A DNA stretch of 22,873 bases, from positions 1 through 22,873 of the IMG/VR virus record IMGVR_UViG_3300025889_001014. One strand, 5' to 3'. The position numbers and the translations under genes were made by a program. Of this stretch, positions 4,470-20,790 are shown one piece after another. Position 1 is the stretch's first letter. Each line of letters opens with the position of its first letter. This DNA comes from a virus. Under the pieces are notes generated by a model. The model made no database searches. It was given only the letters and a program-made list of their open reading frames with translations, and was not told where the DNA came from.

Positions 4470-5036
4470 TTATCCGCGCCATTTTGAATTCTTTACATCA
4501 AAAATAATTGAAATGCGGGATAGTTCGGATTTGTTTTCTACATGATGAGTTTCTTTATTATTAAACCACCACAACTCTCCAGCAGAATATAGTTCAACTT
4601 CATCACCTTCAAACTCAGTATTAAGTTGAGGAGGAGTGACTACTATATTTTCATAGTAACCAGATAGAACTAAATGAAATCTATCTTTGTCTGCATAGTA
4701 CTGACCTTCATCTATGTGTGCATCTACTACACCGTCTTTAGGTAAATGTACAATAGCAATACGATATACTTCACCGCCGTACTGTTCTACAAACCAATTC
4801 ATAAACTCTCTCACTTTTGGATATCGCGCATAAGTTTGAGTATCGGTTGTTGTGTGAGTATCATTAATATGCAAGTTATGTAGTTTTGCTTTTCTTAGAT
4901 TAATGCTTTGTGTCATGCGTTGACATTCGATAGTATCTTGTCTACCGGTTTCTAAGTTAAAGTCATCCCATTGCATTGCTACTTCTTTGAGCATTGGTAG
5001 AACATTTAGATTTTCAGCGAGTTTAAAATGGTTCAA
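4470..5036 (-). CDS. 2-oxoglutarate/Fe(II) oxygenase, aspartyl/asparaginyl beta-hydroxylase-like, 188 aa
   Basis: Double-stranded beta-helix oxygenase. The HxD iron motif is H107-x-D109 (VVDAHIDEG), the distal histidine is H164 or H165 (KETHHVENKS), and R174 (SRISIIFDV) would bind 2-oxoglutarate; this is the pattern of the aspartyl/asparaginyl hydroxylase family. The start appears to be a TTG at 5036: AAGGAG lies 7 bases before it and TTG overlaps the TGA of the upstream gene; the next ATG would remove 14 residues. It forms a three-gene unit with the phosphoribosyltransferase-like gene and a prolyl-hydroxylase-like gene, overlapping the former by 4 bases. The substrate is unknown; modification of a host protein, phage protein or small molecule is possible. 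Confidence 0.75.
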   Translation of the reverse strand: MNHFKLAENLNVLPMLKEVAMQWDDFNLETGRQDTIECQRMTQSINLRKAKLHNLHINDTHTTTDTQTYARYPKVREFMNWFVEQYGGEVYRIAIVHLPKDGVVDAHIDEGQYYADKDRFHLVLSGYYENIVVTPPQLNTEFEGDEVELYSAGELWWFNNKETHHVENKSELSRISIIFDVKNSKWRG

Positions 5037-5695
5037 TGACTTGCTCCTTTCAGATTAAATTCATCCATATCGAATAAACTAATTATTTTTACACTAGGGT
5101 CTAGATACATATCATGCATCTGTCTCAGTTCATGTTCTTTCACACTATATCTTTCTTCTGGTAATCCCATATCATAATAACTACGATTGACTTTATTGAC
5201 TACAACAAATGCATATTGCATTTTAGGAATATCATAGTTTCTGCAGATATCCGAAGCAATCTTCAAAGACATTGTTGAGTTTGCTAAGTCATCACACAGA
5301 AGTACAGGCATATCAAACTTAGGCGTACCTTCCCAAGGTTCTTCTAATCCATATTCTTTTGGTGCTTTTCGAAATATAAAAGAGTGTATATCTAAGTCTA
5401 ATAAATGTTTAGCATAGATTGGTATAGAAGTTATCATAGGTGTTGCGGCAGTTTCAAGACCAGACATCTGAAAGTTGAAGTGACCTATCTCTTCTTGTAT
5501 CTTATATAAGAAACAAATTGTCAAGTGCTTATTGAATTCAGGATTGTATAGACCTTTACGAAGATAGAAGCACCAAGTATAATTTGTACCTGGTACTTTA
5601 CCTTTCATGTATTGTCCACGAACAATACAGTTCTCATCAATATATTTTTTTAACCAGAGTAAACTGGCATCATAATTTTTTTGTTCAATCATCAT
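5033..5695 (-). CDS. phosphoribosyltransferase-like protein (orotate-PRTase-like), 220 aa
   Basis: The stretch SFIFRKAPKEYGLEEPWEGTP (about 105-125) followed by MPVLLCDDLANSTMS (129-143) matches the order in orotate phosphoribosyltransferases, where a mobile RKxxKxHG loop precedes the PRPP-binding motif VVVVDDVxTTGxS. The two acidic residues of the PRPP motif are kept (D135, D136), but the usual TTG(G/T) is replaced by NST. An upstream SGLETAATPMITS segment (78-90) resembles the conserved GxExxxxPLA region. It probably acts in nucleotide salvage or transfers a phosphoribosyl group to another base. It starts at an ATGATG overlapping the upstream stop and sits between two 2OG-Fe(II) oxygenases, which may hint at base or sugar modification (inference). 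Confidence 0.65.
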   Translation of the reverse strand: MMIEQKNYDASLLWLKKYIDENCIVRGQYMKGKVPGTNYTWCFYLRKGLYNPEFNKHLTICFLYKIQEEIGHFNFQMSGLETAATPMITSIPIYAKHLLDLDIHSFIFRKAPKEYGLEEPWEGTPKFDMPVLLCDDLANSTMSLKIASDICRNYDIPKMQYAFVVVNKVNRSYYDMGLPEERYSVKEHELRQMHDMYLDPSVKIISLFDMDEFNLKGASH

Positions 5696-6176
5696 GTGGT
5701 CTAAATTTAAATGCTACGTTAAGTCTTTTCTTATCACGATAAGATGTTCCTCTATGGAGTTGATTGCCTGGCATACGCATTATTCGTCCAGGTATTGGCA
5801 GAATGCTTTCAACCCTTTTTTCATCTTCAAACAATACTTCTGTACCACCCTCATAAAATTCATTATTATCGACATAACATATTACAGTAACAGAACCTTC
5901 TATTTGATTGTCACGATGAAATTGCGTATGTTCTCCAGGCCAAAAGCAATTAGTATGACAATCATATAAATCTAATTCTCTTAACTCTGGCCATGCTTTA
6001 AATATTCCATTCAACATCAAATCATGAAACTTCCATTCATATGGAACAGGTGCTGATGCTCCAGATTGAAAGGCGCCATCATCTGTTGTATTGATATTAT
6101 ACGGCAACTCTTTCACTTCTCTATAGAATAGTTCAACTTCATTCTTAGTGAAAAGATTATCAACAAATTGTATCAT
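5685..6176 (-). CDS. 2-oxoglutarate/Fe(II) oxygenase, prolyl-4-hydroxylase-like, 163 aa
   Basis: Typical short phage P4H-like dioxygenase. The iron ligands are H87-x-D89 (TQFHRDNQ) and H141 (NQLHRGTSY); R151 (KKRLNVAFKFRP) is the 2-oxoglutarate anchor. GGTEVLFED (110-118) and PGRIMRMPGNQLHRG (129-143) are the expected strands between them. Start MIQFVDNLF at 6176, with AAGGA about 11 bases upstream. It is the first gene after the tRNA-Thr gene and overlaps the phosphoribosyltransferase-like gene by 11 bases. From memory, oxygenases of this type are abundant in T4-like marine phages; their substrates are not established. Confidence 0.85.
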   Translation of the reverse strand: MIQFVDNLFTKNEVELFYREVKELPYNINTTDDGAFQSGASAPVPYEWKFHDLMLNGIFKAWPELRELDLYDCHTNCFWPGEHTQFHRDNQIEGSVTVICYVDNNEFYEGGTEVLFEDEKRVESILPIPGRIMRMPGNQLHRGTSYRDKKRLNVAFKFRPHDD

Positions 6177-6198
6177 GTTATTATATATCCTTCCAGAA

Positions 6199-6273
6199 TG
6201 GTGCCGATGGAGAGATTTGAACTCCCAACCTACTGATTACAAATCAGTTGCACTACCATTGTGCTACATCGGC
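6199..6273 (-). tRNA. tRNA-Thr (anticodon TGT)
   Basis: The acceptor arms 6267-6273 and 6203-6209 pair over 7 bp, with discriminator A and an encoded CCA (6199-6201). The anticodon loop TTTGTAA gives TGT, reading ACA, and a T-loop TTCAAAT is present. Confidence 0.92.
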
Positions 6274-6277
6274 AAAT

Positions 6278-6354
6278 TGGTCGGAGATGCTGGATTCGAA
6301 CCAACGACCCTCTGCTCCCAAAGCAGATGCGCTACCAGACTGCGCTAATCTCCG
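6278..6354 (-). tRNA. tRNA-Pro (anticodon TGG)
   Basis: The acceptor arms 6348-6354 and 6282-6288 pair over 7 bp, with discriminator A and an encoded CCA (6278-6280). The anticodon loop TTTGGGA gives TGG, reading CCA, and the T-loop is TTCGAAT. Its 5' end directly abuts the stop codon of the upstream CDS. Confidence 0.92.
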
Positions 6355-6675
6355 TTAAACTTTATCCCACAACTGACTTTCTAATGGTTGGTCTGTATCT
6401 CGCCAACGCAAACATCCATCTTCATCTTTATAATATTGAGGAGCATACTCATCTAGTTCGAAGACTTGCTTAAAAATAATCTCAGCATTCTCACACTTTG
6501 CTTCTAATACTTCTGCTAGACCACTCAGAACGGTGTGTGTGCGGTCTTCAGTATAAATGAGACTACTATCATACATCATATCCGCAACGGTTTGTATGTC
6601 TGTTGCTGTACTGCGAATATCACTCATCGCATGTTCTAAATCAAATCGGGTTTTACCGAACCTATTTTCACTCAT
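6355..6675 (-). CDS. hypothetical protein, 106 aa, inside the tRNA cluster
   Basis: The start is MSENRFGKTR at 6675; the open frame extends 40 codons upstream but that part is tRNA-Cys and tRNA-Arg sequence and is not coding. The stop TAA is adjacent to the 5' end of tRNA-Pro. The protein is acidic and helical (LEHAMSDIRSTATDIQTVAD, LSGLAEVLEAKCENAEII) and ends in an acidic aromatic tail. No family is recognised. It must be expressed from a transcript carrying tRNAs on both sides, so tRNA processing would release its mRNA. Confidence 0.65.
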   Translation of the reverse strand: MSENRFGKTRFDLEHAMSDIRSTATDIQTVADMMYDSSLIYTEDRTHTVLSGLAEVLEAKCENAEIIFKQVFELDEYAPQYYKDEDGCLRWRDTDQPLESQLWDKV

Positions 6676-6689
6676 TTTATTTCCTCGTA

Positions 6690-6764
6690 TGGACTTGCGG
6701 AGAGGATTCGAACCTCCATAGAACAGATTTGCAATCTGTCGCATCACCTTTCTGCCACCGCAAG
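6690..6764 (-). tRNA. tRNA-Cys (anticodon GCA)
   Basis: The acceptor arms 6758-6764 and 6694-6700 pair over 7 bp, with discriminator U (A at 6693) as expected for Cys and an encoded CCA (6690-6692). The anticodon loop ATTGCAA gives GCA, and the T-loop is TTCGAAT. Confidence 0.9.
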
Positions 6765-6767
6765 AAT

Positions 6768-6844
6768 TGGCCTGCCCGGTAGGATTCGAACCCACGACCT
6801 ACGGATTAGAAATCCGTTGTTCTATCCAACTGAACTACGGGCAG
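6768..6844 (-). tRNA. tRNA-Arg (anticodon TCT)
   Basis: The acceptor arms 6838-6844 and 6772-6778 pair over 7 bp, with discriminator G and an encoded CCA (6768-6770). The anticodon loop TTTCTAA gives TCT, reading AGA. It lies only 3 bases from tRNA-Cys. Confidence 0.92.
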
Positions 6845-6850
6845 ATACTT

Positions 6851-7039
6851 TTACTTCTGATACTTATTTGTATCAGCACCAATCATTCGACACATATGTT
6901 GAATGTCATCAATCATAAACTGAATGAGTTCAGCATTCTGTTCGGTTTTTGGTGTATCGTATTTCAATCTACGAAGGTTCATTGATTTCTCGTAGATAAC
7001 ATTTACTTTATCACATAAGTCTGATATTTTATGTTGCAT
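6851..7039 (-). CDS. hypothetical protein, 62 aa
   Basis: Start MQHKISDLCD at 7039, with a strong AGAGGTGAT ribosome binding site. It ends 6 bases before tRNA-Arg. The protein is all-helical and charged, with heptad-like spacing over residues 5-50 (DLCDKVNVIYEKSMNLRRL, AELIQFMIDDIQHMCRMI), so it may be a short coiled coil. No family is recognised. Confidence 0.6.
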   Translation of the reverse strand: MQHKISDLCDKVNVIYEKSMNLRRLKYDTPKTEQNAELIQFMIDDIQHMCRMIGADTNKYQK

Positions 7040-7053
7040 TTATCACCTCTATG

Positions 7054-7275
7054 TTATAATCCTAAGATTTTAGATGCACTCTCTCTAAACCCTTTACCAG
7101 GATTTTCTGTCAACCAATCTTTCAATTGCTCAAAGTAAAAAGCAGAGTCCTCTTCACCTTGACGTTCTAGTGCTTCTTGAGCATCTCTAGCAAATGCAAT
7201 TGCTTGTCTTAGCATTGCGCCGTTATCATTGAACATTGCTTTGCTTTGATATTTACCTGGACGTTGATTACTCAT
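7054..7275 (-). CDS. hypothetical protein, 73 aa
   Basis: Start MSNQRPGKYQ at 7275, overlapping the stop of the LPP20-like lipoprotein gene in an ATGA. The N-terminus is basic, followed by a helical hairpin (GAMLRQAIAFARDAQEALER, then DSAFYFEQLKDWLTEN) and a short C-terminal helix. The arrangement resembles small helical phage proteins, but I recognise no specific family. It is coupled to the envelope operon upstream, though it is itself soluble. Confidence 0.6.
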   Translation of the reverse strand: MSNQRPGKYQSKAMFNDNGAMLRQAIAFARDAQEALERQGEEDSAFYFEQLKDWLTENPGKGFRESASKILGL

Positions 7276-7928
7276 TGTGTCAAAATCTCCGTGACAGTTT
7301 TATCTTTAATTGCATCTTGCTCATTTTGTGCTTCTACTGCGGCATCAAGTTCTTTGTATGCATTCGTAGCAGAAATCTTTGAAAGTAAGATGCGGTCTTT
7401 ACGCAAGCGGTTCAGCAAAATCTTCTGCGCTTGCAAATCGGAATACTCAAGTAGTACATAGACACGGTACTGTGTGCCACTAGATACAACCTTACTCTCA
7501 GCAACTTTATAACCAGCAACATCTACATCAGCAATTAGATTGCTAGTAGTCTTTTCAATCTCCGAGAGTACGGCAGTATCAGTTTCATCAGAACCAATCT
7601 TTGACATAAATGATTTTGTCTGACTACGAACACGACCATTGATACGGTCAGCAAGAGTAGTCTTTGCATTCAGAACTGCCATGTCAAAAGACAACTGCAA
7701 GTCTGGTGATGCTGTAGTGCCGACTGCATAGATTGCTTTGTCACTCTCTGGCATCTCTGTAAACCATTTAGGAATTACTGCAACATTGTCTTGTACAACA
7801 TTTGCTTTATATTCATACGATGCAACATCAACTGTATTAGGCGGTGCAGTACCAGCAACCTTCACATCGTTAGAACTACACGCCGCAAGTGCAAGACATG
7901 CGGTACCCATCATAATATACTGTTTCAC
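7272..7928 (-). CDS. LPP20-family-like lipoprotein, 218 aa
   Basis: A type II signal sequence with lipobox LAAC (C17) follows a short N-terminus, so the mature protein should be lipidated. The body matches what I remember of the LPP20 family: a PKWFTEMP motif (about 54-61), then YAVGTTASPDLQLSFDMAVLNAKTTLADRI, then YRVYVLLEYS near residue 155-165. The start is GTG at 7928, with AAGGAG 7 bases upstream; it overlaps the stop of the small membrane protein. An internal ATG five codons in is less well placed. A phage lipoprotein of this size could alter the host envelope, for example by superinfection exclusion, but that is inference. Confidence 0.75.
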   Translation of the reverse strand: MKQYIMMGTACLALAACSSNDVKVAGTAPPNTVDVASYEYKANVVQDNVAVIPKWFTEMPESDKAIYAVGTTASPDLQLSFDMAVLNAKTTLADRINGRVRSQTKSFMSKIGSDETDTAVLSEIEKTTSNLIADVDVAGYKVAESKVVSSGTQYRVYVLLEYSDLQAQKILLNRLRKDRILLSKISATNAYKELDAAVEAQNEQDAIKDKTVTEILTQ

Positions 7929-8074
7929 TATTTCACTCCTTCTAGCACTTCAACAGTTTGGTCACGAAGACCACTATCAACGAACCAACCCATCGGATCA
8001 ATGTTCGTCATCAATTCAGGAAAGTTGTAAATAACAACTGCACCCAAAATAAAACCCACCAAATACTTCATCAT
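7928..8074 (-). CDS. 48-aa membrane or secreted small protein
   Basis: Starts at ATGATG (8074/8071) after a TAGGAG. The protein begins MMKYLVGFILGAVVIYNF, a hydrophobic segment of about 14 residues that could be a transmembrane anchor or uncleaved signal, followed by a polar tail (DPMGWFVDSGLRDQTVEVLE). The TAG stop overlaps the GTG of the lipoprotein gene. It fills the gap between two larger envelope genes with good spacing on both sides. No homologue is recognised. Confidence 0.6.
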   Translation of the reverse strand: MMKYLVGFILGAVVIYNFPELMTNIDPMGWFVDSGLRDQTVEVLEGVK

Positions 8075-8080
8075 AAACTC

Positions 8081-8608
8081 CTAGTATCTGTTATTACCTA
8101 TTATCAAATCTACCACACTTGATATTGCTTTGTCAACTGGATTCGTCTGTATGTACCCACTATTGCCATTGATTGGAACAAATCGTATCACCGGTTGTGC
8201 TTGTTGAACTATTACTTCTCGTTCTACAATCTGCACCTCAGGTTGAGGTATTGGTGTATGTGTAGGTAATGCATCAGACTGTGCCACTACAGGTTCTTGT
8301 TCTTGCTTCAATGAACAATTCATTTCTGTTTTAGCAGTAAGAACTTCTGGAGATACTTGTTGAATAATATCTTTCTTACCTTTTGTCATCGCCTGTTCAC
8401 ATGCATAATTTTCTGTAACGTCTGGACCAAACACATAATCACCTGAAGTGTAGTGTTCAACTCCATCAATGGTTACATCAAACTTCATAATACATTTACG
8501 AGTATCATCTATGTAAGGAAAAACTTTTCGGTCTATATTACGAACTTCTTCAATAGTATGTTGCCAGTTCGATACGACCTGTTGGTCATAATCACAAGGT
8601 GCATCCAT
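8081..8608 (-). CDS. hypothetical protein, 175 aa, Pro/Gln-rich C-terminal part
   Basis: Start MDAPCDYDQQ at 8608, after the GGAGG located at the end of the small lipoprotein gene. It has four cysteines (5, 39 and about 70 and 98) and a domain-like N-terminal half (CIMKFDVTIDGVEHYTSGDY). A low-complexity linker rich in Pro, Gln and Val follows (HTPIPQPEVQIVEREVIVQQ), and the tail ends IIGNNRY. No signal peptide is visible, which is odd because the neighbouring genes in the operon encode exported proteins. Family not recognised. Confidence 0.6.
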   Translation of the reverse strand: MDAPCDYDQQVVSNWQHTIEEVRNIDRKVFPYIDDTRKCIMKFDVTIDGVEHYTSGDYVFGPDVTENYACEQAMTKGKKDIIQQVSPEVLTAKTEMNCSLKQEQEPVVAQSDALPTHTPIPQPEVQIVEREVIVQQAQPVIRFVPINGNSGYIQTNPVDKAISSVVDLIIGNNRY

Positions 8609-8611
8609 AAT

Positions 8612-8770
8612 CTATCCTCCATTCAACCAATTACCAACTAACTCAACTGGACATTTATCTCGGTACTTACAACTCTGATACATGTCTATTGCAAGTTCAG
8701 TTGTAGTACAACCAGATAGTACGAATATTAAGGGCAGTAAATACCATTGCCTTTTGGATCGCTGTAGCAT
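8612..8770 (-). CDS. 52-aa lipoprotein overlapping the upstream secreted-protein gene
   Basis: ATG at 8770 lies inside the 3' end of the secreted-protein gene in another frame, with GGGGA a few bases upstream. The protein has a basic N-terminus (MLQRSKRQ), a hydrophobic stretch (WYLLPLIFVL) and a lipobox LSGC with C21, then a mature part of 32 residues (TTTELAIDMYQSCKYRDKCP...) with two further cysteines. The sequence is a textbook lipoprotein signal, and the frame carries the ribosome binding site of the next gene. The partly nested layout recalls spanin Rz/Rz1 pairs, but the upstream partner is not Rz-like and no lysis gene is nearby. Function unknown. Confidence 0.7.
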   Translation of the reverse strand: MLQRSKRQWYLLPLIFVLSGCTTTELAIDMYQSCKYRDKCPVELVGNWLNGG

Positions 8771-9060
8771 TTACCAGTCCCCAAGTTACCTAATTTGTAG
8801 TTGAGTTTAGGACGCTTACCGTTAGGATATGCTTTCCCGCTATAACCGCGCGGATCAATCACAGTGCTAATTACTGCTCTTGCCGCTTGCTCAAGGTCAA
8901 GACCTTGATTGAAAATGTAACGAACATCGTGCGGAAGTTGAAGAGCAGTATTGCTATCATTCCAAACACTGTTTGCAGGAAGTTTCCAACTGTCTAAGTC
9001 GCCAGCATTTGCAGTTGTCGCTGTAAATACAAGAGCGGCAGTCATCAAAATTTTCTTCAT
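8728..9060 (-). CDS. secreted protein, 110 aa
   Basis: The start chosen is MKKILMTAALVF at 9060 (AAAGG upstream); the open frame extends 7 codons further. Residues 1-19 form a Sec signal peptide ending TTANA, so the product is exported to the periplasm. The mature part has an N-terminal polar region, a helix (LDLEQAARAVISTVID) and a basic, glycine-rich C-terminus containing two cysteines (KCYSDPKGNGIYCP). No family recognised. It is the lead gene of an operon of envelope proteins behind the promoter at 9091-9119. Confidence 0.65.
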   Translation of the reverse strand: MKKILMTAALVFTATTANAGDLDSWKLPANSVWNDSNTALQLPHDVRYIFNQGLDLEQAARAVISTVIDPRGYSGKAYPNGKRPKLNYKLGNLGTGKCYSDPKGNGIYCP

Positions 9061-9090
9061 AATTTTACCTTTCATCAACATTATGTATAT

Positions 9091-9119
9091 ACTATAACAT
9101 AGTTAAATTACTTTGTCAA
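9091..9119 (-). promoter_or_regulatory. sigma-70-like promoter of the envelope operon
   Basis: Minus strand TTGACA (9119-9114), 17-bp spacer, TATAGT (9096-9091). The TGA stop codon of the upstream gene (9118-9116) is part of the -35 box. The transcript start does not carry the GTAAGATGA element seen at other early promoters. Confidence 0.75.
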
Positions 9120-9316
9120 TCATTTTCGTCATTAAAAGCGGAAATAATTTCAAGTTCATCTACTTTTGTCTTTAGTGCAGTGATTGCGAGTTGCATTGCA
9201 CCGGTATAACGCCGTGCTTCAGCAAGAGATATATGGTCGGTTAGTGTCCATTCAATCTTACGTTCAACTTCATTTTCTAGCACATCTAGATATTCTTGCA
9301 ATTCATCTAATGTCAT
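9116..9316 (-). CDS. hypothetical protein, 66 aa, coiled-coil-like
   Basis: Start MTLDELQEYL at 9316, with GAGGAAG 4-5 bases upstream, overlapping the stop of the previous gene (ATGA). The protein is acidic and all-helical with heptad spacing (LQEYLDVLENEVERKI, AITALKTKVDELEII), so it is probably a coiled coil. Its TGA doubles as part of the next promoter's -35 box. No family is recognised. Confidence 0.6.
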   Translation of the reverse strand: MTLDELQEYLDVLENEVERKIEWTLTDHISLAEARRYTGAMQLAITALKTKVDELEIISAFNDEND

Positions 9317-9630
9317 GTTACTTCCTCAAACCCTGCGAATGCTACGCGATACTTTTTATTACCAAATAAGATTTGGTCATTGACTGATGTAGAACGAAGA
9401 CCCCATTCTTTACCATCTTTGTCAACATGAAGAGGCGCCATAAGAGTAACATTATCGTTACCATCTTGTTCACCTTTCATAGACCAACTGTCATTGATGT
9501 TTTGTGTCCAGCGATACGCATACTCAAGACAAGCATCGATACCTGCTTCAACTGTGTTAAGTGGAACATCGACAAACGCAACAGTGCGAGGTGTCTCTTC
9601 AAATGCTGTGTGAATAACTGCTAGTTTCAT
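9313..9630 (-). CDS. hypothetical protein, 105 aa
   Basis: Start MKLAVIHTAF at 9630, with AAGGAAG upstream and a 4-base overlap with the preceding stop. A mixed alpha/beta protein: it starts with a short strand (KLAVIHTAF), then a helix (AGIDACLEYAYRWTQNI), and ends in strands (QILFGNKKYRVAFAGFEEV). From memory similar small proteins occur in cyanophage and roseophage genomes, but I can name no function. Confidence 0.6.
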   Translation of the reverse strand: MKLAVIHTAFEETPRTVAFVDVPLNTVEAGIDACLEYAYRWTQNINDSWSMKGEQDGNDNVTLMAPLHVDKDGKEWGLRSTSVNDQILFGNKKYRVAFAGFEEVT

Positions 9631-9785
9631 AATGTAACTTCCTTCTTGTAAACCTCATACGCTTCAAGAGTTTTCATGTCTTGCGCCATAGGATTCTTTT
9701 CAATAAACTCAATCAACTGTTCCATTGTGAACCCAAAGAACTCACAACGCTTTTTCAGAACAGTCATAGCACCTTTAATTCTCAT
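9627..9785 (-). CDS. hypothetical protein, 52 aa
   Basis: The start chosen is MRIKGAMTVL at 9785, because AAGGAG lies 7 bases upstream and the extended frame would overlap the gene before it. It is a small helical protein with a basic N-terminal half (VLKKRCEFFGF) and an acidic-helical C-terminal half (EQLIEFIEKNPMAQDMK). No recognised domain. Confidence 0.55.
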   Translation of the reverse strand: MRIKGAMTVLKKRCEFFGFTMEQLIEFIEKNPMAQDMKTLEAYEVYKKEVTL

Positions 9786-9796
9786 AACAAATCTCC

Positions 9797-10135
9797 TTAG
9801 CAGATACCTGCCCAACGAATGCGACCTTCAAAACTATCTGTGTCGAACACTGTCGCTCTTGCGAAGTTTGTAGCAGGAGCATTCCATCCTGCCGCCATCA
9901 ACACATCACCTTCAACAAATTTCTTTGTTGCTTTCTTCACAATGAAACTGTGAACGCTACGTTCATCATCGCCGCGACACTGAATAATCTTAATGTAGTT
10001 GCGACCTTCTTTAGCAATCCACTTCATATCATCTTTCTGACTACTGTTGATTTCGGCACGTTCACACCAGTCAATCCAGTCTGCATGAACATAGTCAATG
10101 TAGTCAGCGATGTTTTTTTCAGTCACTTGATTCAT
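9797..10135 (-). CDS. hypothetical protein, 112 aa
   Basis: First gene behind the promoter at 10170-10198; start MNQVTEKNIA at 10135. An N-terminal helical part (IADYIDYVHADWIDWCERA) is followed by a beta-rich region (RNYIKIIQCRGDDERSVHSF) and a C-terminal segment with KFVEGDVLMAAGWNAPATNFARATVF. From memory, proteins of this type are common in marine phage early regions. The function is unknown and no catalytic motif stands out. Confidence 0.6.
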   Translation of the reverse strand: MNQVTEKNIADYIDYVHADWIDWCERAEINSSQKDDMKWIAKEGRNYIKIIQCRGDDERSVHSFIVKKATKKFVEGDVLMAAGWNAPATNFARATVFDTDSFEGRIRWAGIC

Positions 10136-10169
10136 AATTTTCTCTCTTCTCTATTCAACTTACATTATA

Positions 10170-10198
10170 ACTATACCAAAAGAATACATGTTTGTCAA
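10170..10198 (-). promoter_or_regulatory. sigma-70-like early promoter
   Basis: Minus strand TTGACA (10198-10193), 17-bp spacer, TATAGT (10175-10170). The transcript should begin GTAAGTTGAATAG, a shortened form of the shared 5' element. The stop codon TGA of the preceding 39-aa gene lies within the -35 box. Confidence 0.8.
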
Positions 10199-10314
10199 GT
10201 CTTTTTTTCAATTTTTTTCAATTTTTTTTCGAAAATTTTTGACCAATTTTCTTTGAATTTTTTATCGTCTGCATTCTTACGAGGTGCAGAACCTTTACCG
10301 TTCTGTGGATTCAT
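10195..10314 (-). CDS. 39-aa conserved small phage protein
   Basis: Protein MNPQNGKGSAPRKNADDKKF, then NWSKIFEKK and a lysine-rich tail. The NGKGSxPR start followed by a short NW.KIFxKK helix is a pattern I remember in many marine phage small proteins. It starts 20 bases inside the end of the upstream gene. Its TGA (10197-10195) lies in the TTGACA of the next promoter. The A-rich coding strand (seen as T-runs on the plus strand) encodes the lysines and should not be mistaken for a terminator. Highly basic; it may bind nucleic acid or another phage protein (inference). Confidence 0.7.
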   Translation of the reverse strand: MNPQNGKGSAPRKNADDKKFKENWSKIFEKKLKKIEKKT

Positions 10315-10627
10315 TTAATTTCAGATTGCCTTGCTTTTCTTTTTCCATGTCATCTAACATGTTATACAAACCAATCTTCACCGTATATGCAAAGAAGTAG
10401 TTTGTGACTTGGTCATCATCTGATAGATTTTCAAAGTTTGGTGCGAGAAAGTTCTCAACCTCAAGTAAGTCTTTGTTGATTACATCTCGGATGCCTGCTC
10501 TGACTATCAGACCCATATCTTCATCACTACCCTCAAAAGTAAAGACAGCGGAACCGTCAGGCAGTTCCGTGTCGGTAACTTTAAGACTTGCGAGGGTTGT
10601 ATCGTTGAAATCCTTTTTGGATGGCAT
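10295..10627 (-). CDS. hypothetical protein, 110 aa
   Basis: Start MPSKKDFNDT at 10627, with GGAG 7 bases upstream, although this overlaps the previous gene by 47 bases. The protein is acidic; an N-terminal beta part (VTDTELPDGSAVFTFEGSDEDM) precedes a helical C-terminal half (YFFAYTVKIGLYNMLDDMEKE). It looks like the small acidic proteins of early T4-like operons. No known domain is recognised. Confidence 0.6.
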   Translation of the reverse strand: MPSKKDFNDTTLASLKVTDTELPDGSAVFTFEGSDEDMGLIVRAGIRDVINKDLLEVENFLAPNFENLSDDDQVTNYFFAYTVKIGLYNMLDDMEKEKQGNLKLNESTER

Positions 10628-10814
10628 CGATAAACTCCTTCTTAGAGAAGACTGCGTTAGTAGGACCTGATAAGTCGGTCACAAATCTATAGTTCTTATA
10701 GACAGTGTGGTAGATTTTACCAGCGTGAGATGAGGGTGAATATACAAACCCTCTGAAGTTGTACGATGGAAGTGTATCCATATTCATTTCATTCTTCTTT
10801 AGATAGCGCATCAT
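10581..10814 (-). CDS. hypothetical protein, 77 aa
   Basis: Start at ATGATG (10814) after AGGAG; first gene behind the promoter at 10847-10876. It has a beta-rich middle with aromatic residues (NFRGFVYSPSSHAGKIYHTV, YKNYRFVTDLSGPTNAVF) and a basic helical end (KKEFIDAIQKGFQRYN). No family is recognised. Confidence 0.6.
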   Translation of the reverse strand: MMRYLKKNEMNMDTLPSYNFRGFVYSPSSHAGKIYHTVYKNYRFVTDLSGPTNAVFSKKEFIDAIQKGFQRYNPRKS

Positions 10815-10995
10815 TTTCTCCTATGCGTCTGTGTAATGAGTTTCTTACTATACTATAGTTATGTCTGCAATGTCAACTGTTTTGTATGGCAAGAATAAAA
10901 AATATCTTTTGCCGCTACTTTCGCCATGGTAACTCTGAATTTGACGTTACCCAATACTATATAGGGTGTCCCCTTTTCAGAAACAAATAAAACCT
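10815..10995 (-). other. 181-base intergenic region with promoter and hairpins
   Basis: This is the longest non-coding stretch of the early region except the thyX upstream region. It holds the promoter at 10847-10876, an inverted repeat GGTAAC/GTTACC (10928-10933 with 10946-10951) and a second imperfect one, GGCAA/TTGCC. No strong terminator with a T-run is visible, and no open frame has a ribosome binding site. Confidence 0.5.
10847..10876 (-). promoter_or_regulatory. sigma-70-like promoter
   Basis: Minus strand TTGACA (10876-10871), 18-bp spacer, TATAGT (10852-10847). It is 33 bases upstream of the ATG of the 77-aa gene. It lacks the GTAAGATGA start element. Confidence 0.65.
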
Positions 10996-11208
10996 TTACC
11001 TTTCCAAGATAACATAGTCACCAAAGAACCTGTCAAACACACTGACTAAGTTCTCATAATCACCTGATTTCATTTCTTCAATAATCTCTTCTGTATCAAA
11101 CCCCAAGTCACGCCCCCATTTCTCTGCTCTAGCAAGAAGGAAGAATGCGTTACCCTCAGGACCCGTCAGGTCAATGACAGGTGTTCGGTCTATCTTTTCT
11201 CTAATCAT
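10996..11208 (-). CDS. conserved small phage protein, 70 aa
   Basis: The start is taken at ATG 11208 (GAGGAG 10 bases upstream); a TTG two codons earlier is also possible. The sequence PVIDLTGPEGNAFFLLARAE, followed by a helix and then SGDYENLVSVFDRFFGDYV, matches a short protein I remember from many marine phages, where a VIDLTGPxGNAF start and a GDYENL...GDYV end are constant. Its role is not known. It overlaps the upstream gene by 8 bases and closes the operon that starts at 11860. Confidence 0.7.
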   Translation of the reverse strand: MIREKIDRTPVIDLTGPEGNAFFLLARAEKWGRDLGFDTEEIIEEMKSGDYENLVSVFDRFFGDYVILER

Positions 11209-11422
11209 TTGCAATAAACTCCTCTAAGGTAGGACGCTCACGATTACCACGAACATAGGAACGAAACGCAGATATTATTTGCATCTTGGTTTCGCTACCT
11301 TCAGCAAGGTTGTATAATCGTTGTTGGTTATCACGACCTGCAGTCCAAACACGATGGTCATCACTATAGTCATAGAACCAATCGTGCATGGATGCTTCAT
11401 TGAAAAATTGTTCTATATTCAT
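11201..11422 (-). CDS. hypothetical protein, 73 aa
   Basis: Start MNIEQFFNEA at 11422, with AAGGAATAAGT before it. Acidic at the ends, with an aromatic-rich N-terminal half (MHDWFYDYSDDHRVW) and a helical middle containing a basic patch (KMQIISAFRSYVRGNRER). No known family. It is the middle gene of a three-gene early operon. Confidence 0.6.
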   Translation of the reverse strand: MNIEQFFNEASMHDWFYDYSDDHRVWTAGRDNQQRLYNLAEGSETKMQIISAFRSYVRGNRERPTLEEFIAND

Positions 11423-11431
11423 ACTTATTCC

Positions 11432-11860
11432 TTATGCAGTGTAAATGTAAGGTTTGTTCCACTGACCAACTTTCAGTGACAAGTAGTAAGCAGTGTCGAA
11501 GTAGTCAGTCATTGCATCGCTGTTATCGTACCACTTAGTACCTTTCATTGCGGCAATCATCTCATCAACAAAGTTTGCTTCTTTCTCAGCACCGACTTTT
11601 CTGTACCAATCAGCAGAATGGTAAGGGTTAATGTCGTAGTAGTCACTGACACCACCGAAGTAGTTGAAACCACGGCGCTCATTTTCTTGTTCGTAGTACT
11701 TGTTAGAAGCACCAATCAAGTCAAGCGCACCTTCTTTGATTTTGACAACTAAAGAAGAATGATGATTAATACCGATTGTCACTTTGACACCGTATTTCTT
11801 AGCAACTGCTTTGATGGCAGGAGTAAGTTCTTTCTTAGTCTCTTGTGAAATATATGCCAT
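11432..11860 (-). CDS. conserved marine-phage protein, 142 aa
   Basis: Start MAYISQETKKELTPAIKAV at 11860, with AAAGGAAA before it. The sequence continues KKYGVKVTIGINHHSSLVVK and ends with a DEMIAAMKGTKWYDNSD block and NKPYIYTA. This protein (MAYISQE...AIK.V.KKYG...HHSSLVV...MKG.KWYDNSD.MTDYFD) is one I remember as highly recurrent in marine and other phages. No function is assigned to it in my knowledge. It is the first gene behind the near-consensus promoter at 11899-11927. Confidence 0.75.
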   Translation of the reverse strand: MAYISQETKKELTPAIKAVAKKYGVKVTIGINHHSSLVVKIKEGALDLIGASNKYYEQENERRGFNYFGGVSDYYDINPYHSADWYRKVGAEKEANFVDEMIAAMKGTKWYDNSDAMTDYFDTAYYLSLKVGQWNKPYIYTA

Positions 11861-11977: not shown

Positions 11978-12544
11978 TTAAGAAAAATTAAAAGAAACTG
12001 TAACTCTCATGTCTGAATTATTGTATCCTACATAGTGTTCTAACCAAGACGGAAACATAACTAGTTTTCCTGTCTCTGCGGGTACATTAAGAAACTCAAC
12101 ATCATAGTCTGTACTACCTCCAATAGTAGGTTCATGCATCTTATGTGCCATGAGTGGATTAGCAAAAGTGATAGGCGCCGCATCTTTATCAGCGTAAATA
12201 TAAAATGCTCCACTGATAACCGAGCGTCTATGATTATGTTGCATTATAGTAGAACCTCGCTTTTGAATATTGAACCAACTTCTACCTAACTTCAGATTAC
12301 TCATGTCAATACCGACTTGTTTTGTGAATGCTTTCACTTCTGATGTGATTACCGATTTCAACAAACTAAAATCCGAATGCTCTAGAATATTCATTTCTTT
12401 AGTATAGGTACTTGTCGCATCACCATGTAATAGTCCATGGTCTTCACTCTCTATCTGCAGACAGGTTTCTAACATTTTACTGGTATCGATGCGAGTGTCT
12501 TTTATTGCAATCGCCGATGGAAATAAACTCAATACTTCAATCAT
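11978..12544 (-). CDS. putative 2OG-Fe(II) oxygenase with HxH motif, 188 aa
   Basis: Matches the layout of the short phage oxygenase family I know as 2OG-FeII_Oxy_5. W90-FN leads to QHNHRRS with H103-x-H105, then SGAFYIYAD (111-119), ITFANP (125-130), KLVMFPSWLEHYVGYN with distal H170, and R180 in the final strand (MRVTVSFNF). The usual HxD is HxH here, as in most members I remember. Its start MIEVLSLFPS overlaps the thyX stop by 4 bases. Substrate unknown; hydroxylation is only inferred. Confidence 0.75.
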   Translation of the reverse strand: MIEVLSLFPSAIAIKDTRIDTSKMLETCLQIESEDHGLLHGDATSTYTKEMNILEHSDFSLLKSVITSEVKAFTKQVGIDMSNLKLGRSWFNIQKRGSTIMQHNHRRSVISGAFYIYADKDAAPITFANPLMAHKMHEPTIGGSTDYDVEFLNVPAETGKLVMFPSWLEHYVGYNNSDMRVTVSFNFS

Positions 12545-13771: not shown

Positions 13772-14479
13772 TTATCTCCTTCTTTTCTTTTCTAACTCGT
13801 TAGCAATCCATTGTTTAGCAATATAGTTTTTGACTGGTGTTTTAACTAGTCCACGAACTCTCTTAAACACCATTTGAAGCACATCATCATTTGGACCATT
13901 GTTGTCTAGAATGATGAAGTTCTTACCACCAAAGAAACGCTGAAATGCACCGATGTTTTGTTGTACACCATTCCACATCTTTGTAACTTCTTCTCTAGGT
14001 AGTGTTCTTTTTCTTTCTTGATTTCTCTGTTGTGCAACTTCTTCTGAAGTGTTTACAAAAATCATGTAAGTGTCGTAACCAAGTTGCTTTAGTGCCGCCG
14101 CTTGTCTTTGAATTTTTTCAAAGTCTTTACCGGTACCATCAATGACAACACCAAGACGACCCATCAAGAAATTACTCTGCATTCGCTTGGTAGTTGCTTT
14201 TGCTCTACCACGAATTTCTTGACCTTTATCTGAGTAGATATCTTCTGGTGTAGTATCTAGACCAGCATCTTTGAGCATCTTTTCATAAACGTCATCAGAA
14301 TTTACAACTTTCAGTCCCATACCTGAAGTCGTCTTTTTCTGAACATAAGACTTACCTGAACCAGGACCTCCTGCTAGAAAGAATGCTTTGAAGATGCCTG
14401 GATCATAAACGCCTTCATTCAGTTCTTTAATTTGCTCAACGATGATATCATCTTTAAGTTCCGAATATTTCTTAGACAT
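13772..14479 (-). CDS. P-loop kinase-like protein (zeta-toxin/AAA_33-like), 235 aa
   Basis: The start chosen is MSKKYSELKD at 14479; the open frame goes 29 codons further but that part is the intergenic promoter region. Walker A is GGPGSGKS at 37-44 after the strand AFFLA, followed by NSDD and then VVIDGTGKDF as the second strand (Walker-B-like region), IFVNTSEEVAQQRNQERKR and an ILDNN element. This is the layout of nucleotide or zeta-toxin-type kinases. From memory the family is widespread in T4-like marine phages, with no proven substrate. It is the only minus-strand gene among the plus-strand genes and has its own T4-type late promoter (14512-14519). Confidence 0.75.
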   Translation of the reverse strand: MSKKYSELKDDIIVEQIKELNEGVYDPGIFKAFFLAGGPGSGKSYVQKKTTSGMGLKVVNSDDVYEKMLKDAGLDTTPEDIYSDKGQEIRGRAKATTKRMQSNFLMGRLGVVIDGTGKDFEKIQRQAAALKQLGYDTYMIFVNTSEEVAQQRNQERKRTLPREEVTKMWNGVQQNIGAFQRFFGGKNFIILDNNGPNDDVLQMVFKRVRGLVKTPVKNYIAKQWIANELEKKRRR

Positions 14480-14493
14480 GCTTATTCTCCGAT

Positions 14494-14501
14494 TATAAAT
14501 A
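14494..14501 (+). promoter_or_regulatory. candidate T4-type late promoter (TATAAATA)
   Basis: A perfect TATAAATA on the plus strand, 67 bases before the start of the 198-aa gene. Less well placed than the copy at 14533-14540. Confidence 0.4.
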
Positions 14502-14511
14502 ACTATGAAAG

Positions 14512-14519
14512 TATTTATA
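14512..14519 (-). promoter_or_regulatory. T4-type late promoter (TATAAATA) for the kinase-like gene
   Basis: A perfect TATAAATA on the minus strand, 33 bases before ATG 14479. In T4 this box alone defines late promoters. It faces away from the plus-strand copy at 14533, forming a divergent pair. Confidence 0.65.
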
Positions 14520-14532
14520 AAACCAACTATCG

Positions 14533-14540
14533 TATAAATA
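14533..14540 (+). promoter_or_regulatory. T4-type late promoter (TATAAATA) for the 198-aa gene
   Basis: A perfect TATAAATA on the plus strand, 27 bases before the ATG at 14568. The position is right for a late transcript with a short leader containing GAGGAA. Confidence 0.7.
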
Positions 14541-14567
14541 CTCATATAATTATAGTAGAGGAACAAA

Positions 14568-15178: not shown

Positions 15179-15829
15179 ATGCAAATAGATTATGTGTTTC
15201 CACATCCAATTGCAAGATTGGATATAAGTGATGAGGTGAATAACGATAGTATTGTTAAGTCTGTCGTTGAATTATCAGAAACTATAGATGAAAATAGTGC
15301 AACCGAGTACTGGGATTGCAAACTTATAACTTCATTTGAAAATGAAAAAATCAATATTGAATTTGCGAGAGACAACATTCCTTTTATTGAAGTTGTCGAG
15401 AAGCATGTAAATCAATATATGGTAGAAGTTGGTTGGTACAAACCACACCTACCGAATAAAATTACTCAAATGTGGTTCAACAGATATATTGAAGGTCATC
15501 ATTTTCAAGAAGCACACAATCATGGCAATCATGAAGTGTGTGCTATCTATTATGCTACTAATGATTTGACACCTACTCTATTCTTAAATCCTAATCATCA
15601 TACTTTTCATAATCATTATGATGCTTGTGATGTAACTGAAGTCACTAGAAGAGCATATGAAGCATATTCCCAGACGGGCACACTTGTAATCTTTCCTGGT
15701 TACATGCTACACACAGTACCTTATATAAGAAAAAAAATGACAGAGTTTGATTTAGAAAAAGATAGAATGACTATTGCCATGAATTTCGGTAAATATGAGG
15801 AATCTGTCTTGACAAAGATAGATAAGTAG
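15179..15829 (+). CDS. putative 2OG-Fe(II) oxygenase with HxH motif, 216 aa
   Basis: Same family layout as the gene at 11978: MWFNRYIEGHHF (98-109), then AHNHGNHEVCAIYYA with H113-x-H115, TLFLNPN (133-139), LVIFPGYMLHTVP with distal H178, and R196 (DRMTIAMNFG). This is the 2OG-FeII_Oxy_5-type pattern of a putative hydroxylase. It follows the late gene at 14568 by 14 bases, with AGGAA as ribosome binding site. The linker between the NPN strand and the FPG strand is longer than in the two sister genes. Substrate unknown. Confidence 0.75.
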   Translation: MQIDYVFPHPIARLDISDEVNNDSIVKSVVELSETIDENSATEYWDCKLITSFENEKINIEFARDNIPFIEVVEKHVNQYMVEVGWYKPHLPNKITQMWFNRYIEGHHFQEAHNHGNHEVCAIYYATNDLTPTLFLNPNHHTFHNHYDACDVTEVTRRAYEAYSQTGTLVIFPGYMLHTVPYIRKKMTEFDLEKDRMTIAMNFGKYEESVLTKIDK

Positions 15830-18057: not shown

Positions 18058-18804
18058 ATGTCAAGACAAAAGTCCACAGCAGTAAAAGCAAAATGTTTAA
18101 CTAAGACTTCAATTAAAAGAATAAATCCGATTACGGAAAATCAAGAAAAAACATTCGAAGCATTTAATGATGATAAACATTTGATGTTGCATGGATGCGC
18201 TGGAACAGGTAAAACATTTATTATGATTTATCTAGCAATGAAAGCAATTTTATCTCAAAGAGTAGAGCAACAGAAACTTTATATTGTAAGGTCTATGCTA
18301 CCGACAAGAGATATTGGTTTCTTACCTGGTTCACAAGAAGAGAAGATGAGTGTTTACACCGAACCCTACTACTCACTATTTGACGAAATGTTTCCTAACA
18401 TAGAGAACCCTTATGAACTTGCAAAGTATCAGGATATAGTAGAATTTATACCTACTTCATATATCAGAGGCATTACACTAAGGGATGCATTTATTATTGT
18501 TGATGAATGTCAGAATTTAAATTTTCATGAATTAGATACAATCATCACTAGAGTGGGAGAAAACTCGCGCATTGCTTTCTGTGGAGACTTTATGCAAACT
18601 GATTTGAAGAACAATGCAGAACAAAGAGGTCTCATTCAGTTTATGGATATAATCAAATCTATGAAATGTTTTGAAACAATTGACTTTAAAGAAGAAGATA
18701 TCGTAAGAAGTGGTCTTGTGAAGGAATATATATTAAGCAAGAACCAAAAACAATATGAAAATACATTTGAAAGCATAGACAAGAAGATGCGACAAGTTGC
18801 CTGA
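18058..18804 (+). CDS. phoH: PhoH-like ATPase, 248 aa
   Basis: Walker A GCAGTGKT at 46-53 and Walker B FIIVDECQN at about 150 show an ATPase of the PhoH family, with the family-specific LPGSQEEKM after strand 2 and FCGDFMQTDL (sensor region) later. Starts at ATG 18058, with AGAGGAG upstream. phoH is a very common marine phage gene; its name comes from phosphate-starvation induction in E. coli, and its role in phages is not settled (RNA handling and nucleotide metabolism have been proposed). It lies in the plus-strand block, separated by 50 bases from the upstream gene. Confidence 0.92.
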   Translation: MSRQKSTAVKAKCLTKTSIKRINPITENQEKTFEAFNDDKHLMLHGCAGTGKTFIMIYLAMKAILSQRVEQQKLYIVRSMLPTRDIGFLPGSQEEKMSVYTEPYYSLFDEMFPNIENPYELAKYQDIVEFIPTSYIRGITLRDAFIIVDECQNLNFHELDTIITRVGENSRIAFCGDFMQTDLKNNAEQRGLIQFMDIIKSMKCFETIDFKEEDIVRSGLVKEYILSKNQKQYENTFESIDKKMRQVA

Positions 18805-18817
18805 AAGGAGAAGTAAA

Positions 18818-18979
18818 ATGAGAAAATGGATTAACGCAAGAATTGGCGAAAGAACTAGTTGGGATGGAGCAGTGCTTATTGGTGCTGGCGTAGCATTTTT
18901 AATTTTTGCACCAATCGCTGATATTGTAGCATATGGTGCGATTGCATACGGTGCTTGGACAATATTCAAAGGAGAATAA
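18818..18979 (+). CDS. 53-aa two-helix membrane protein, holin candidate
   Basis: ATG at 18818, with AAAGGAG upstream (the open frame begins earlier, but only this start has a ribosome binding site). Protein MRKWINARIGERTSWDGAVL, then two hydrophobic stretches of about 15 residues (LIGAGVAFLIFAPIA and VAYGAIAYGAWTIF) and end KGE. The layout of a basic N-terminus and two transmembrane helices, right before a muramidase gene with 2 bases between them, suits a small holin. From memory, similar proteins (ERTSWDG...) occur in cyanophages. The holin role is an inference from position and topology. Confidence 0.65.
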   Translation: MRKWINARIGERTSWDGAVLIGAGVAFLIFAPIADIVAYGAIAYGAWTIFKGE

Positions 18980-18981
18980 AG

Positions 18982-19560
18982 ATGGCAAAAGAGAATTGGG
19001 GAAACTGCATTTCTAAAGTTCTCATTCATGAGGGTGGTTATGTAAATCATCCAAAAGACCCTGGTGGTATCACGAATATGGGTGTCACCAAGAGAGTTTA
19101 TGAAGAGTGGGTTGGTCACGAAGTATCTGAACAAGATATGAAAGACTTAACAGAAGATGATGTAAGACCAATCTATAAGAAAAACTATTGGGATAGAATT
19201 AAGGGAGACAAACTTCCTGATGGTCTAGACTTGTGTGTTTTTGACTTTGGAGTAAATGCAGGTACAGGTCGTGCCGCAAAATATTTGCAGAAGATGATTG
19301 GCACTACTGCAGATGGTGGGATTGGACCTAATACCCTTAAAGCACTAAAGGCATATGTGAAAGAGAATGGTCTAGTAGAAACTATCAAGAAGTATCAATC
19401 AAATCGTCAAGACTATTATGAGAGTTTGAGTACATTTGATACTTTCGGTAGAGGTTGGACAAATCGTAATAACGATACAACTGAATACGCAATAGAACTC
19501 GCCGAGAGTGATGATGACGAAAATACTAGAGAAGCAGATAGAAATTCTATAAAGACTTGA
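18982..19560 (+). CDS. endolysin, GH108-type N-acetylmuramidase, 192 aa
   Basis: Start MAKENWGNCI at 18982, after GGAGAATAAAG; the longer open frame starts within the preceding gene. The catalytic glutamate is E17 in LIHEGGYVNHPKDPGGITNM, the hallmark of glycosyl hydrolase family 108, followed by GVTKRVYEEW. KNYWDRIKGDKLPDGLDLCV and FDFGVNAGTGRAAKYLQ match the family's second conserved block. The C-terminal part (TFDTFGRGWTNRN) resembles the peptidoglycan-binding region of these enzymes. It cleaves cell-wall glycan at lysis. No signal peptide, so it needs the holin-like neighbour for export. The gene's TGA lies inside the -35 box of the promoter at 19557. Confidence 0.9.
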   Translation: MAKENWGNCISKVLIHEGGYVNHPKDPGGITNMGVTKRVYEEWVGHEVSEQDMKDLTEDDVRPIYKKNYWDRIKGDKLPDGLDLCVFDFGVNAGTGRAAKYLQKMIGTTADGGIGPNTLKALKAYVKENGLVETIKKYQSNRQDYYESLSTFDTFGRGWTNRNNDTTEYAIELAESDDDENTREADRNSIKT

Positions 19561-20276: not shown

Positions 20277-20790
20277 CAACATTCAACTCTTTTCCTCAAA
20301 CTTATATAAATACTTTTTACCAACATCACTTGTTGATGATTGTAAAGAAGAATTAGTAGAGTATGCTAAAAATAATAAAAGTGGAATTCAACAATACTTT
20401 ACCACTTACAATACTTTTTTAGAAACTGTTGATAGTATAGGTTCTTCTTGTAAATTGATTAGTGACAATGTTGTTAGAGTTGCAACAAAATTGTCAGAAC
20501 GCCGAGTAAGAGTGGAGAATAGTTTCTTTAATTATGTACCTAAAGGTAATGTTCACTCAAAGCACAATCATGGCGGTAAAGAAATGATATGTGCTATTGT
20601 TTACTTTGATACTATTGGTCAAACAAATTTTTATGATCCTAGACCTCAAGTATTCAATTGGCAACCTCATGTCGAAGTTGCTGAAAAAGGCAAAGTAGTT
20701 TTCTTTCCTGGTTGGTTAGAACATGATATGCCTGCTCATTATGAAGATGAGTTTAGAATTACAATGCCTTTTAATATGCTCATACATTGA
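20266..20790 (+). CDS. putative 2OG-Fe(II) oxygenase with HxH motif, 174 aa
   Basis: The frame opens with GTG at 20239; ATG at 20266 (MDIDNIQLFSSNLYKYFLP) is the most likely start because it gives the family's usual N-terminus, though it has only a weak ribosome binding site and overlaps the exonuclease end by 11 bases. The motifs are HSKHNHGG with H100-x-H102, VYFD, FYDPRP (122-127), VVFFPGWLEHDMP with distal H153, and R164 (EFRITMPFNM). Same family as the genes at 11978 and 15179. The shared HNH-FPGWLEH pattern suggests paralogues that have diverged. Substrate unknown. Confidence 0.75.
   Translation: MDIDNIQLFSSNLYKYFLPTSLVDDCKEELVEYAKNNKSGIQQYFTTYNTFLETVDSIGSSCKLISDNVVRVATKLSERRVRVENSFFNYVPKGNVHSKHNHGGKEMICAIVYFDTIGQTNFYDPRPQVFNWQPHVEVAEKGKVVFFPGWLEHDMPAHYEDEFRITMPFNMLIH

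Follow-up and report, generated by a model that had tools for sequence, protein, structure and literature searches.

The 22,873-base virus record IMGVR_UViG_3300025889_001014 of IMG/VR, the whole of which is called the window here, carries an operon of five head-to-tail genes on the minus strand (9060-7272), with a sixth gene overlapping the last of them. The features of this operon are listed below; signal sequences were assessed by eye, with a lipobox pattern and hydropathy rather than a signal-peptide predictor, and the start of the 110-amino acid (aa) gene was taken at 9060.

9091-9119, minus strand: sigma70-type promoter, TTGACA-17-TATAGT with TG before the -10 element (11/12 matches; sites with at least 11/12 matches are enriched in comparison with shuffles)
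8728-9060, minus strand: 110-aa exported protein, signal peptide by eye, ending in ...ANA
8612-8770, minus strand: 52-aa lipoprotein of outer membrane (OM) type, LSGC lipobox with lipid Cys21, and Cys34 and Cys40 (C-x5-C)
8081-8608, minus strand: 175-aa four-Cys protein, residues 1-98 modelled as beta-beta-beta-beta-alpha-beta, tail Pro/Gln-rich
7928-8074, minus strand: 48-aa protein with one N-terminal transmembrane (TM) segment by hydropathy; TM-type open reading frame (ORF) in relatives
7272-7928, minus strand: 218-aa LPP20-like lipoprotein, GTG start at 7928, lipobox LAAC followed by SS; Pfam LPP20 matches in relatives
7054-7275, minus strand: 73-aa cytoplasmic-type protein, overlapping the LPP20-like gene by 4 nucleotides (nt)

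The original prediction for this DNA placed a signal-peptide protein, a 52-aa lipoprotein, a Pro/Gln-rich protein, a small membrane protein and an LPP20-like lipoprotein behind one promoter, each gene overlapping or abutting the next. The single promoter, the leading position of the exported protein, the lipoprotein and the small membrane protein with its one TM segment have been confirmed, and the junctions among the five genes are, in order, a 43-nt overlap, a 3-nt gap, a 6-nt gap and a 1-nt overlap. The predicted end of the operon at 7272 has to be moved, since the 73-aa gene continues it, and the description as Pro/Gln-rich applies mainly to the tail of the 175-aa protein (17/77 residues), while the first 98 residues constitute a four-Cys domain. 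An upstream ATG of the 110-aa gene at 9081 would be nearly leaderless if the start site lies near 9084. Stop-codon read-through fusing the lipoprotein and the four-Cys protein was rejected: checked by hand, their reading frames agree in the window and in related locus L008, and not in loci L005, L015 and L017.

Ten promoter-type sites with at least 11/12 matches were found in the window against a mean of 1.27 and a maximum of 5 in 60 dinucleotide shuffles, and a stricter site rule gave 8 sites; at a looser 9/12 threshold, the 20 sites found in 5500-11500 are at the chance level (19.2 expected). On the operon strand of the window, there is a single exact copy of the late motif TATAAATA, at 14519. 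Twenty related loci, scanned from -2600 (or from the end of the contig) to +700 relative to the LPP20-like gene, had none, some of them having little upstream sequence. In Melnitz-2, this motif precedes the late genes for the major capsid protein gp23 (motif at 127851, coding sequence (CDS) at 127893) and the sheath (121098, CDS 121161), as well as that for the prohead core (126597, CDS 126636), and is absent from the plus strand between 30925 and 46000, which includes the cassette of this phage (40680-42741). For Melnitz, sigma70 sites are assigned to early and TATAAAT to late transcription in the available part of the report (PMC9004378). Because the operon has a sigma70-type promoter and no late motif, early transcription, which had also been claimed originally, is suggested. 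In the available parts of two further papers, one on a pelagiphage transcriptome does not mention HTVC008M (PMC12753301) and the other mentions it for rhythmic expression only (PMC7238727).

Recurrence of the cassette in related phages

The window is a 22.9-kb fragment akin to the T4-like phages Melnitz, which infects OM43, and HTVC008M and Mosig, which infect SAR11. In a tblastn search, its LPP20-like protein matched seven phage records (four Melnitz isolates, HTVC008M twice, and Mosig), with identities of 56% over the whole length for Melnitz and 32-34% over parts for HTVC008M and Mosig. The window also encodes PhoH, ThyX, a PstS-type binding protein, 2-oxoglutarate (2OG)-Fe(II) oxygenases, a GH108 endolysin, four tRNAs and a permuted transfer-messenger RNA (tmRNA). 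From this gene content and the LPP20-like matches, therefore, its most probable source is a marine T4-like phage belonging to the Melnitz/pelagimyophage group. A cellular source of the LPP20-like gene was considered and rejected; one relative was obtained among 31 pattern matches on genome contigs, and this contig (L193, from a metagenome-assembled genome and labelled Opitutia) is probably phage, given a gp32-type gene seen by eye nearby.

We have compared the best 80 of 100 confirmed IMG/VR relatives of the LPP20-like protein (Melnitz-type loci), the best 80 of 340 Mosig-type loci and 25 HTVC008M-type loci. The gene patterns are loose and many loci are near-identical, so that the counts are not independent; those for Melnitz-type loci refer to 71 loci with at least 1000 bases upstream or 75 with at least 300 bases downstream. 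Upstream of the LPP20-like gene, the four-Cys gene and a TM-type small ORF were each found in 71/71 Melnitz-type loci and a lipoprotein-type ORF in 70/71 (the exception is L078); narrower first patterns, which gave 44/71 for the TM and 50/71 for the lipoprotein ORF, were replaced by the looser ones. The Mosig-type loci have a 17-kDa-antigen-like lipoprotein (63/63), an exported Cys protein (62/63) and a TM protein (57/63), and the same three were found in all 16 HTVC008M-type loci counted. The exported Cys protein of these two types belongs to another family than the four-Cys protein, and their 17-kDa-antigen-like lipoproteins (L002:8791-9285 and L003:8785-9135 in the Mosig and HTVC008M cassettes) match PF16998 under its cut-off. 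A glutaredoxin or thioredoxin gene lies downstream in 70/75 Mosig-type and 24/25 HTVC008M-type loci. The gene order, which had been proposed for a search in other marine phages, thus recurs in three phage lineages with a core composed of an OM-type lipoprotein, an exported Cys protein, a one-TM protein (about 38-49 aa) and the LPP20-like lipoprotein.

Properties of the cassette proteins

Within the cassette, conservation is highest for the LPP20-like protein: mean column identity is 78% in its alignment A1, against 44% for the four-Cys protein (A2) and 42% for the lipoprotein (A4), where the member sets differ. The lipobox pattern was found in 79 of 80 copies, the exception being cut by a contig end, and for ten copies the Cys picked up by the pattern is probably an earlier one, e.g. 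VGACLALGACSS of L041; A-C-S is invariant across the 27 sequences of A1, giving the lipoprotein signal that characterizes the LPP20 family. At E <= 1, Pfam LPP20 (PF02169) matched 5 of these 27 members (best 6.2e-6) and 17 of the 19 members of A3 (best 4.9e-5), the second LPP20-like group, which hhalign connects with A1 at 99.7%, and the window protein had no Pfam match at this threshold. When relatives were scanned singly against the PF02169 cut-off of 25.9 bits, L024 scored 26.1, L037 25.9 and the others lower, and a genome search with the family gave 0/6 records above the cut-off. The label "LPP20-like" of the original prediction is therefore valid for the family, of which membership is borderline, and not for the window protein by itself. 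The AlphaFold2 model was too poor (mean predicted local distance difference test (pLDDT) 45.9) and was not used for fold search. Sequence profile searches of PDB gave nothing convincing for A1, A2 and A4, and a match of A3 to an RNA polymerase 30-kDa polypeptide (0.0056) was taken as chance. In PHROGs, only weak matches to unknown-function or scattered families were obtained (best 0.00077 for the LPP20-like and 0.024 for the four-Cys protein).

The mature part of the 52-aa lipoprotein has about 32 residues. Lipoproteins with Ser or Thr, not Asp, at position +2 are sorted to the outer membrane, and the +2 residue here is Thr. In A4 (14 sequences), lipid Cys21, Glu25 and Cys34 are invariant, and Cys40, Tyr31 and Trp48 are kept in at least 90%. 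The 48-aa protein has a single TM segment at about residues 5-23 and about 25 residues outside the membrane; a tblastn search with its window sequence found no convincing phage record and missed Melnitz itself, and the TM protein was connected between lineages by place and pattern alone. The 110-aa gene is present in 8 of the 71 Melnitz-type loci, every one in the sub-lineage of the window, and a search of phage records with its product gave no match at E <= 1. In several lineages, similar-looking small exported proteins were noticed by eye close to the LPP20-like gene (L189:2537-2758, L002:8323-8550 and L193:4763-4996).

For the four-Cys protein, AlphaFold2 modelled blocks across residues 21-80 at a mean pLDDT of 91-94, with low confidence in the variable tail, and the Melnitz homologue has 54% identity over 116 residues. 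A signal peptide is found in 19 of the 23 members of A2 and not in the window protein: in the window, L005-L008 and L015-L017, the protein begins at the mature N-terminus (MDAP/MDSP) and retains the four Cys, while the signal peptide is kept in the L009-L014 types of the same sub-lineage (L009 and L014 seen). The loci without this signal peptide carry the extra 110-aa exported gene, and L014 has both. Foldseek found nothing in PDB for the four-Cys domain at E <= 0.001, and in BFVD two unnamed phage proteins were matched (3.7e-8 and 1.5e-4). VIA-align gave RAD52 (Z 8.0) and six OM lipoprotein or LptE entries (Z 5.6-6.7), of which its output names 4rh8 and 8h1r as LptE; we take 7rxu, 3bf2, 4kwy and 5tse to be LptE also. 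Because all of these matches fall within the "common arrangement" class of the tool, the possible link to LptE is only a lead.

The cassette genes are under purifying selection in the pairs compared: in six locus pairs, all computable ratios of nonsynonymous to synonymous substitution rates (dN/dS) were less than 1, with some dS values saturated. Between the window and L005, the ratio was 0.12 for the LPP20-like, 0.14 for the four-Cys, 0.21 for the 110-aa, 0.36 for the lipoprotein and 0.42 for the TM gene, and the highest value (0.55) was for the four-Cys gene of L009 and L014. Between L011 and L014, the lipoprotein and four-Cys genes have been exchanged as a single block, where identity drops to 36-69% within a backbone of 88-99% (about -2050 to -1000) and 93-100% (-100 to +2400); identity also falls at about -2500 to -2050 and past +2450. 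This swap was clean when L009, L010 and L011 were each compared with L014. A wider comparison by locus pairs covered 69 of the 80 loci and the window, leaving out nine loci with less than 1000 bases upstream, L008 and L079. Among 74 distinct locus pairs with an LPP20 identity of at least 0.95, a swap (four-Cys domain below 0.8 or lipoprotein below 0.6) was found in 2, and a neighbour gene of low identity (below 0.75) instead in 7; diversifying exchange as proof of exclusion was dropped on these counts. At LPP20 identities of 0.8-0.9, the mean identity was 0.60 for the lipoprotein, 0.77 for SleB, 0.77 for the TM protein and 0.67 for the neighbour gene MNIFYL.

The SleB-type hydrolase and possible alternative functions

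Of 75 Melnitz-type loci, 63 encode an exported SleB-type hydrolase directly downstream of the LPP20-like gene; in the loci listed, the hydrolase gene overlaps or abuts the LPP20-like stop. This hydrolase corresponds to Pfam Hydrolase_2 (PF07486; E 1.1e-21 for Melnitz-2 and 1.3e-20 for L018). In the record of Melnitz-2, the gene that immediately follows the LPP20-like one (L001:12654-13181) is annotated as "cell wall hydrolase", although the available part of PMC9004378 describes Melnitz as having no lysin-like gene besides gp67, with which this gene stands at odds. The 12 loci without an adjacent SleB gene are 11 of the sub-lineage of the window and L078, and the downstream genes listed for 9 of them include no SleB gene; its position is occupied by the 73-aa gene, which is in place in 8/8 loci of the sub-lineage among those listed.

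Since the cassette is coupled to SleB in most Melnitz-type relatives, remodelling of peptidoglycan is a serious rival to the role in exclusion proposed below, possible in our estimate and yet somewhat improbable. The cassette would then be a unit remodelling or stabilizing the OM and peptidoglycan, in which the LPP20-like protein serves as a scaffold under the OM, as FlgP does, and controls the secreted hydrolase, so that the envelope is held intact or locally opened during infection and exclusion is a by-product at most. The 17-kDa-antigen-like lipoprotein located upstream in the cassettes of Mosig and HTVC008M, albeit under the Pfam cut-off, is consistent with this, and so are available parts of studies in which the OM barrier of Helicobacter pylori is protected by FapH, a lipoprotein whose gene neighbours flgP (PMC11756786), and FlgP, having an SHS2-like fold in common with Lpp20, forms a basal disk under the OM (PMC12222027). 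However, the sub-lineage of the window has its one Hydrolase_2 gene elsewhere in the genome (6/6 longer contigs; in L195 it comes after a ring-hydroxylase and tmRNA), where the SleB pattern found the gene in 1 of 4 loci tried and can miss divergent copies. This pattern had no match in Mosig-type or HTVC008M-type loci, and Mosig and HTVC008M had no Hydrolase_2 match at E <= 0.001. The borderline LPP20 membership also counts against this reading, and any ring formation would be conjectural with so poor a model (pLDDT 46).

The adjacent SleB gene is likewise consistent with a lysis cassette, in which the small lipoprotein would be o-spanin-like, the small TM protein a holin or i-spanin-like and SleB an exported lysin. 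The composition resembles holin/lysin/spanin sets, the small lipoproteins have weak PHROGs matches to two Rz-like spanin families (5/14 members each, best 0.0057 and 0.014), and the GH108 gene of Melnitz-2, which is taken to be gp67, ends about 2.2 kb upstream on the same strand. According to the available part of PMC9004378, the glycosyl-hydrolase endolysin gp67 of Melnitz is under an early promoter; therefore, early promoters do not exclude lysis genes. We nevertheless consider a lysis cassette unlikely, as no late motif is found at the operon and the proteins are too short. Rz and Rz1 span the periplasm as an i-spanin with a long periplasmic part and an o-spanin, whereas the TM protein has 48 aa in total, and its approximately 25 non-membrane residues and the approximately 32 of the mature lipoprotein would not reach across. 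In the window, a more ordinary holin-lysin pair is likely formed, as judged by eye, by the GH108 endolysin and an overlapping 60-aa membrane-type protein on the other strand (18797-19560).

Accessory genes of a phage curli-like CsgG/CsgF pore are a very improbable identity for the cassette. CsgG occurs together with a similar cassette in Melnitz-2 and HTVC008M, but some 8 kb separate the two loci in Melnitz-2, Mosig has the cassette and no CsgG match, and no CsgG match was found in the 125,860-base contig, possibly incomplete, of a near relative of the window. Co-occurrence was thus found in 2 of 9 cassette-bearing records, the other 7 being six possibly incomplete contigs and the complete Mosig.

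Other genes of the window were also recorded. The permuted tmRNA gene (22340-22772, plus strand) has the TATAAATA motif at 22327 and is adjoined by a gene for a ring-hydroxylating oxygenase alpha-subunit (21256-22320); a similar gene precedes the tmRNA in L195, and L194 and L195 both carry tmRNA with differing tag peptides. Five genes for 2OG-Fe(II) or Asp/Arg-hydroxylase-type oxygenases are present within 23 kb (4470-5036, 5685-6176, which is slightly under the Pfam cut-off, 11978-12544, 15179-15829 and 20239-20790), and an AAA/zeta-toxin-like kinase is encoded at 13772-14566.

Proposed role and comparison with known systems

Because lipoboxes and signal sequences persist in divergent copies, the genes of the operon very probably act on the envelope, and this part of the original prediction is supported, with early timing suggested as above. 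The reading we tentatively favour, at somewhat less than an even chance, is that the operon alters the envelope of the infected cell with superinfection exclusion as the net effect. In this scheme, the operon would be transcribed early; both lipoproteins, with Ser or Thr at +2, would be located in the outer membrane, and the inner membrane would be the site of the 48-aa protein. The four-Cys protein, which has a signal sequence in most relatives, might, together with its membrane partners, build or act on a periplasm-spanning complex, and the Cys proteins presumably contain disulfides. The lipoprotein of about 32 residues with its C-x5-C loop could work like T5 Llp or Rtp45 of phage Rtp by binding an OM receptor from within the periplasm. 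A constant base may be provided by the TM protein together with the LPP20-like lipoprotein.

Several results weigh against superinfection exclusion. The LPP20-like protein shows good conservation across SAR11 and OM43 phages, unlike what is predicted for a receptor-specific blocker; the four-Cys protein of the window has no signal peptide; and exclusion has no need of the cell-wall hydrolase to which the cassette is coupled in most Melnitz-type loci. Modular exchange is real, yet it is not peculiar to the envelope genes. The 52-aa protein has no detected homology to Llp, Rtp45 or Cor, and the PDB profile search with A4 gave no Llp or Rtp45 chain at E <= 10, the presence of these chains in the library being unchecked. 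PHROGs matches of the small lipoproteins to Cor (8/14 members, best E 0.018) do not surpass the spanin matches and are probably due to the lipoprotein signal that is shared. As to timing, one exact late motif lies inside the LPP20-like gene of HTVC008M, and, according to the available part of PMC7029224, promoter methods derived from cyanophages performed badly on pelagimyophage promoters of the middle and late classes.

A broader, rather doubtful idea is an early trans-envelope machine, in which the LPP20-like scaffold under the OM and a small inner-membrane base would be combined with swappable small lipoproteins and exported Cys proteins for specificity, and with the secreted peptidoglycan hydrolase in one large lineage. 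If true, this would be a new type of envelope takeover, which shields the cell from other phages and prepares its controlled opening.

Among known systems, the available literature describes T5 Llp as acting on FhuA and excluding later phages from the periplasmic side (PMC9586334), and Rtp45, of about 6 kDa with a Cys30-Cys38 disulfide, as acting on LptDE from the same side (PMC12685063). The 52-aa protein is alike in build to Llp, Rtp45 and Cor, being a small OM-type lipoprotein, with two Cys in a C-x5-C loop against the two-Cys disulfide of Rtp45. To our knowledge, none of these lies within a conserved multi-gene envelope cassette. The Imm/Sp exclusion of T4 uses an early small membrane protein and an early exported protein, as here, and is not known to involve lipoproteins; the likeness is one of composition. 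The Rz/Rz1 spanins share with the cassette a small lipoprotein and a small membrane protein, and differ in their length and in the early-type promoter found here. With the LPP20 family (H. pylori Lpp20) and FlgP, there is likeness in that relatives of the window lipoprotein score as LPP20 and that H. pylori flgP also lies beside another lipoprotein gene; the differences are that the window protein is under detection, there is no flagellar context, and its long C-terminal helices appear in a low-confidence model only.

The original prediction stated that no system of this composition had been described. None was named among the open-licence papers listed on LPP20, phage lipoproteins and exclusion, and cyanophage signal peptides, and neither "lipoprotein" nor "LPP20" occurs in the main texts, as available, of PMC9004378 and PMC7029224; however, the cassette is already present in cultured phages, annotated almost wholly as "hypothetical protein" in Melnitz, HTVC008M and Mosig. 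Mosig and HTVC008M have the same plan and differ from the window by the 17-kDa-antigen-like lipoprotein, the downstream glutaredoxin or thioredoxin, and an exported Cys protein with no detected homology to that of the window. Melnitz has the same plan with clear homology of the four-Cys and LPP20-like proteins, and differs in the downstream SleB gene, the lack of the 110-aa exported gene and the retained four-Cys signal peptide. SAR11 and OM43 are abundant ocean bacteria, in which the handling of superinfection, envelope integrity and lysis by phages is largely unknown, and this conserved, apparently early, envelope-directed cassette of Melnitz, HTVC008M and Mosig supplies named genes that can be tested.

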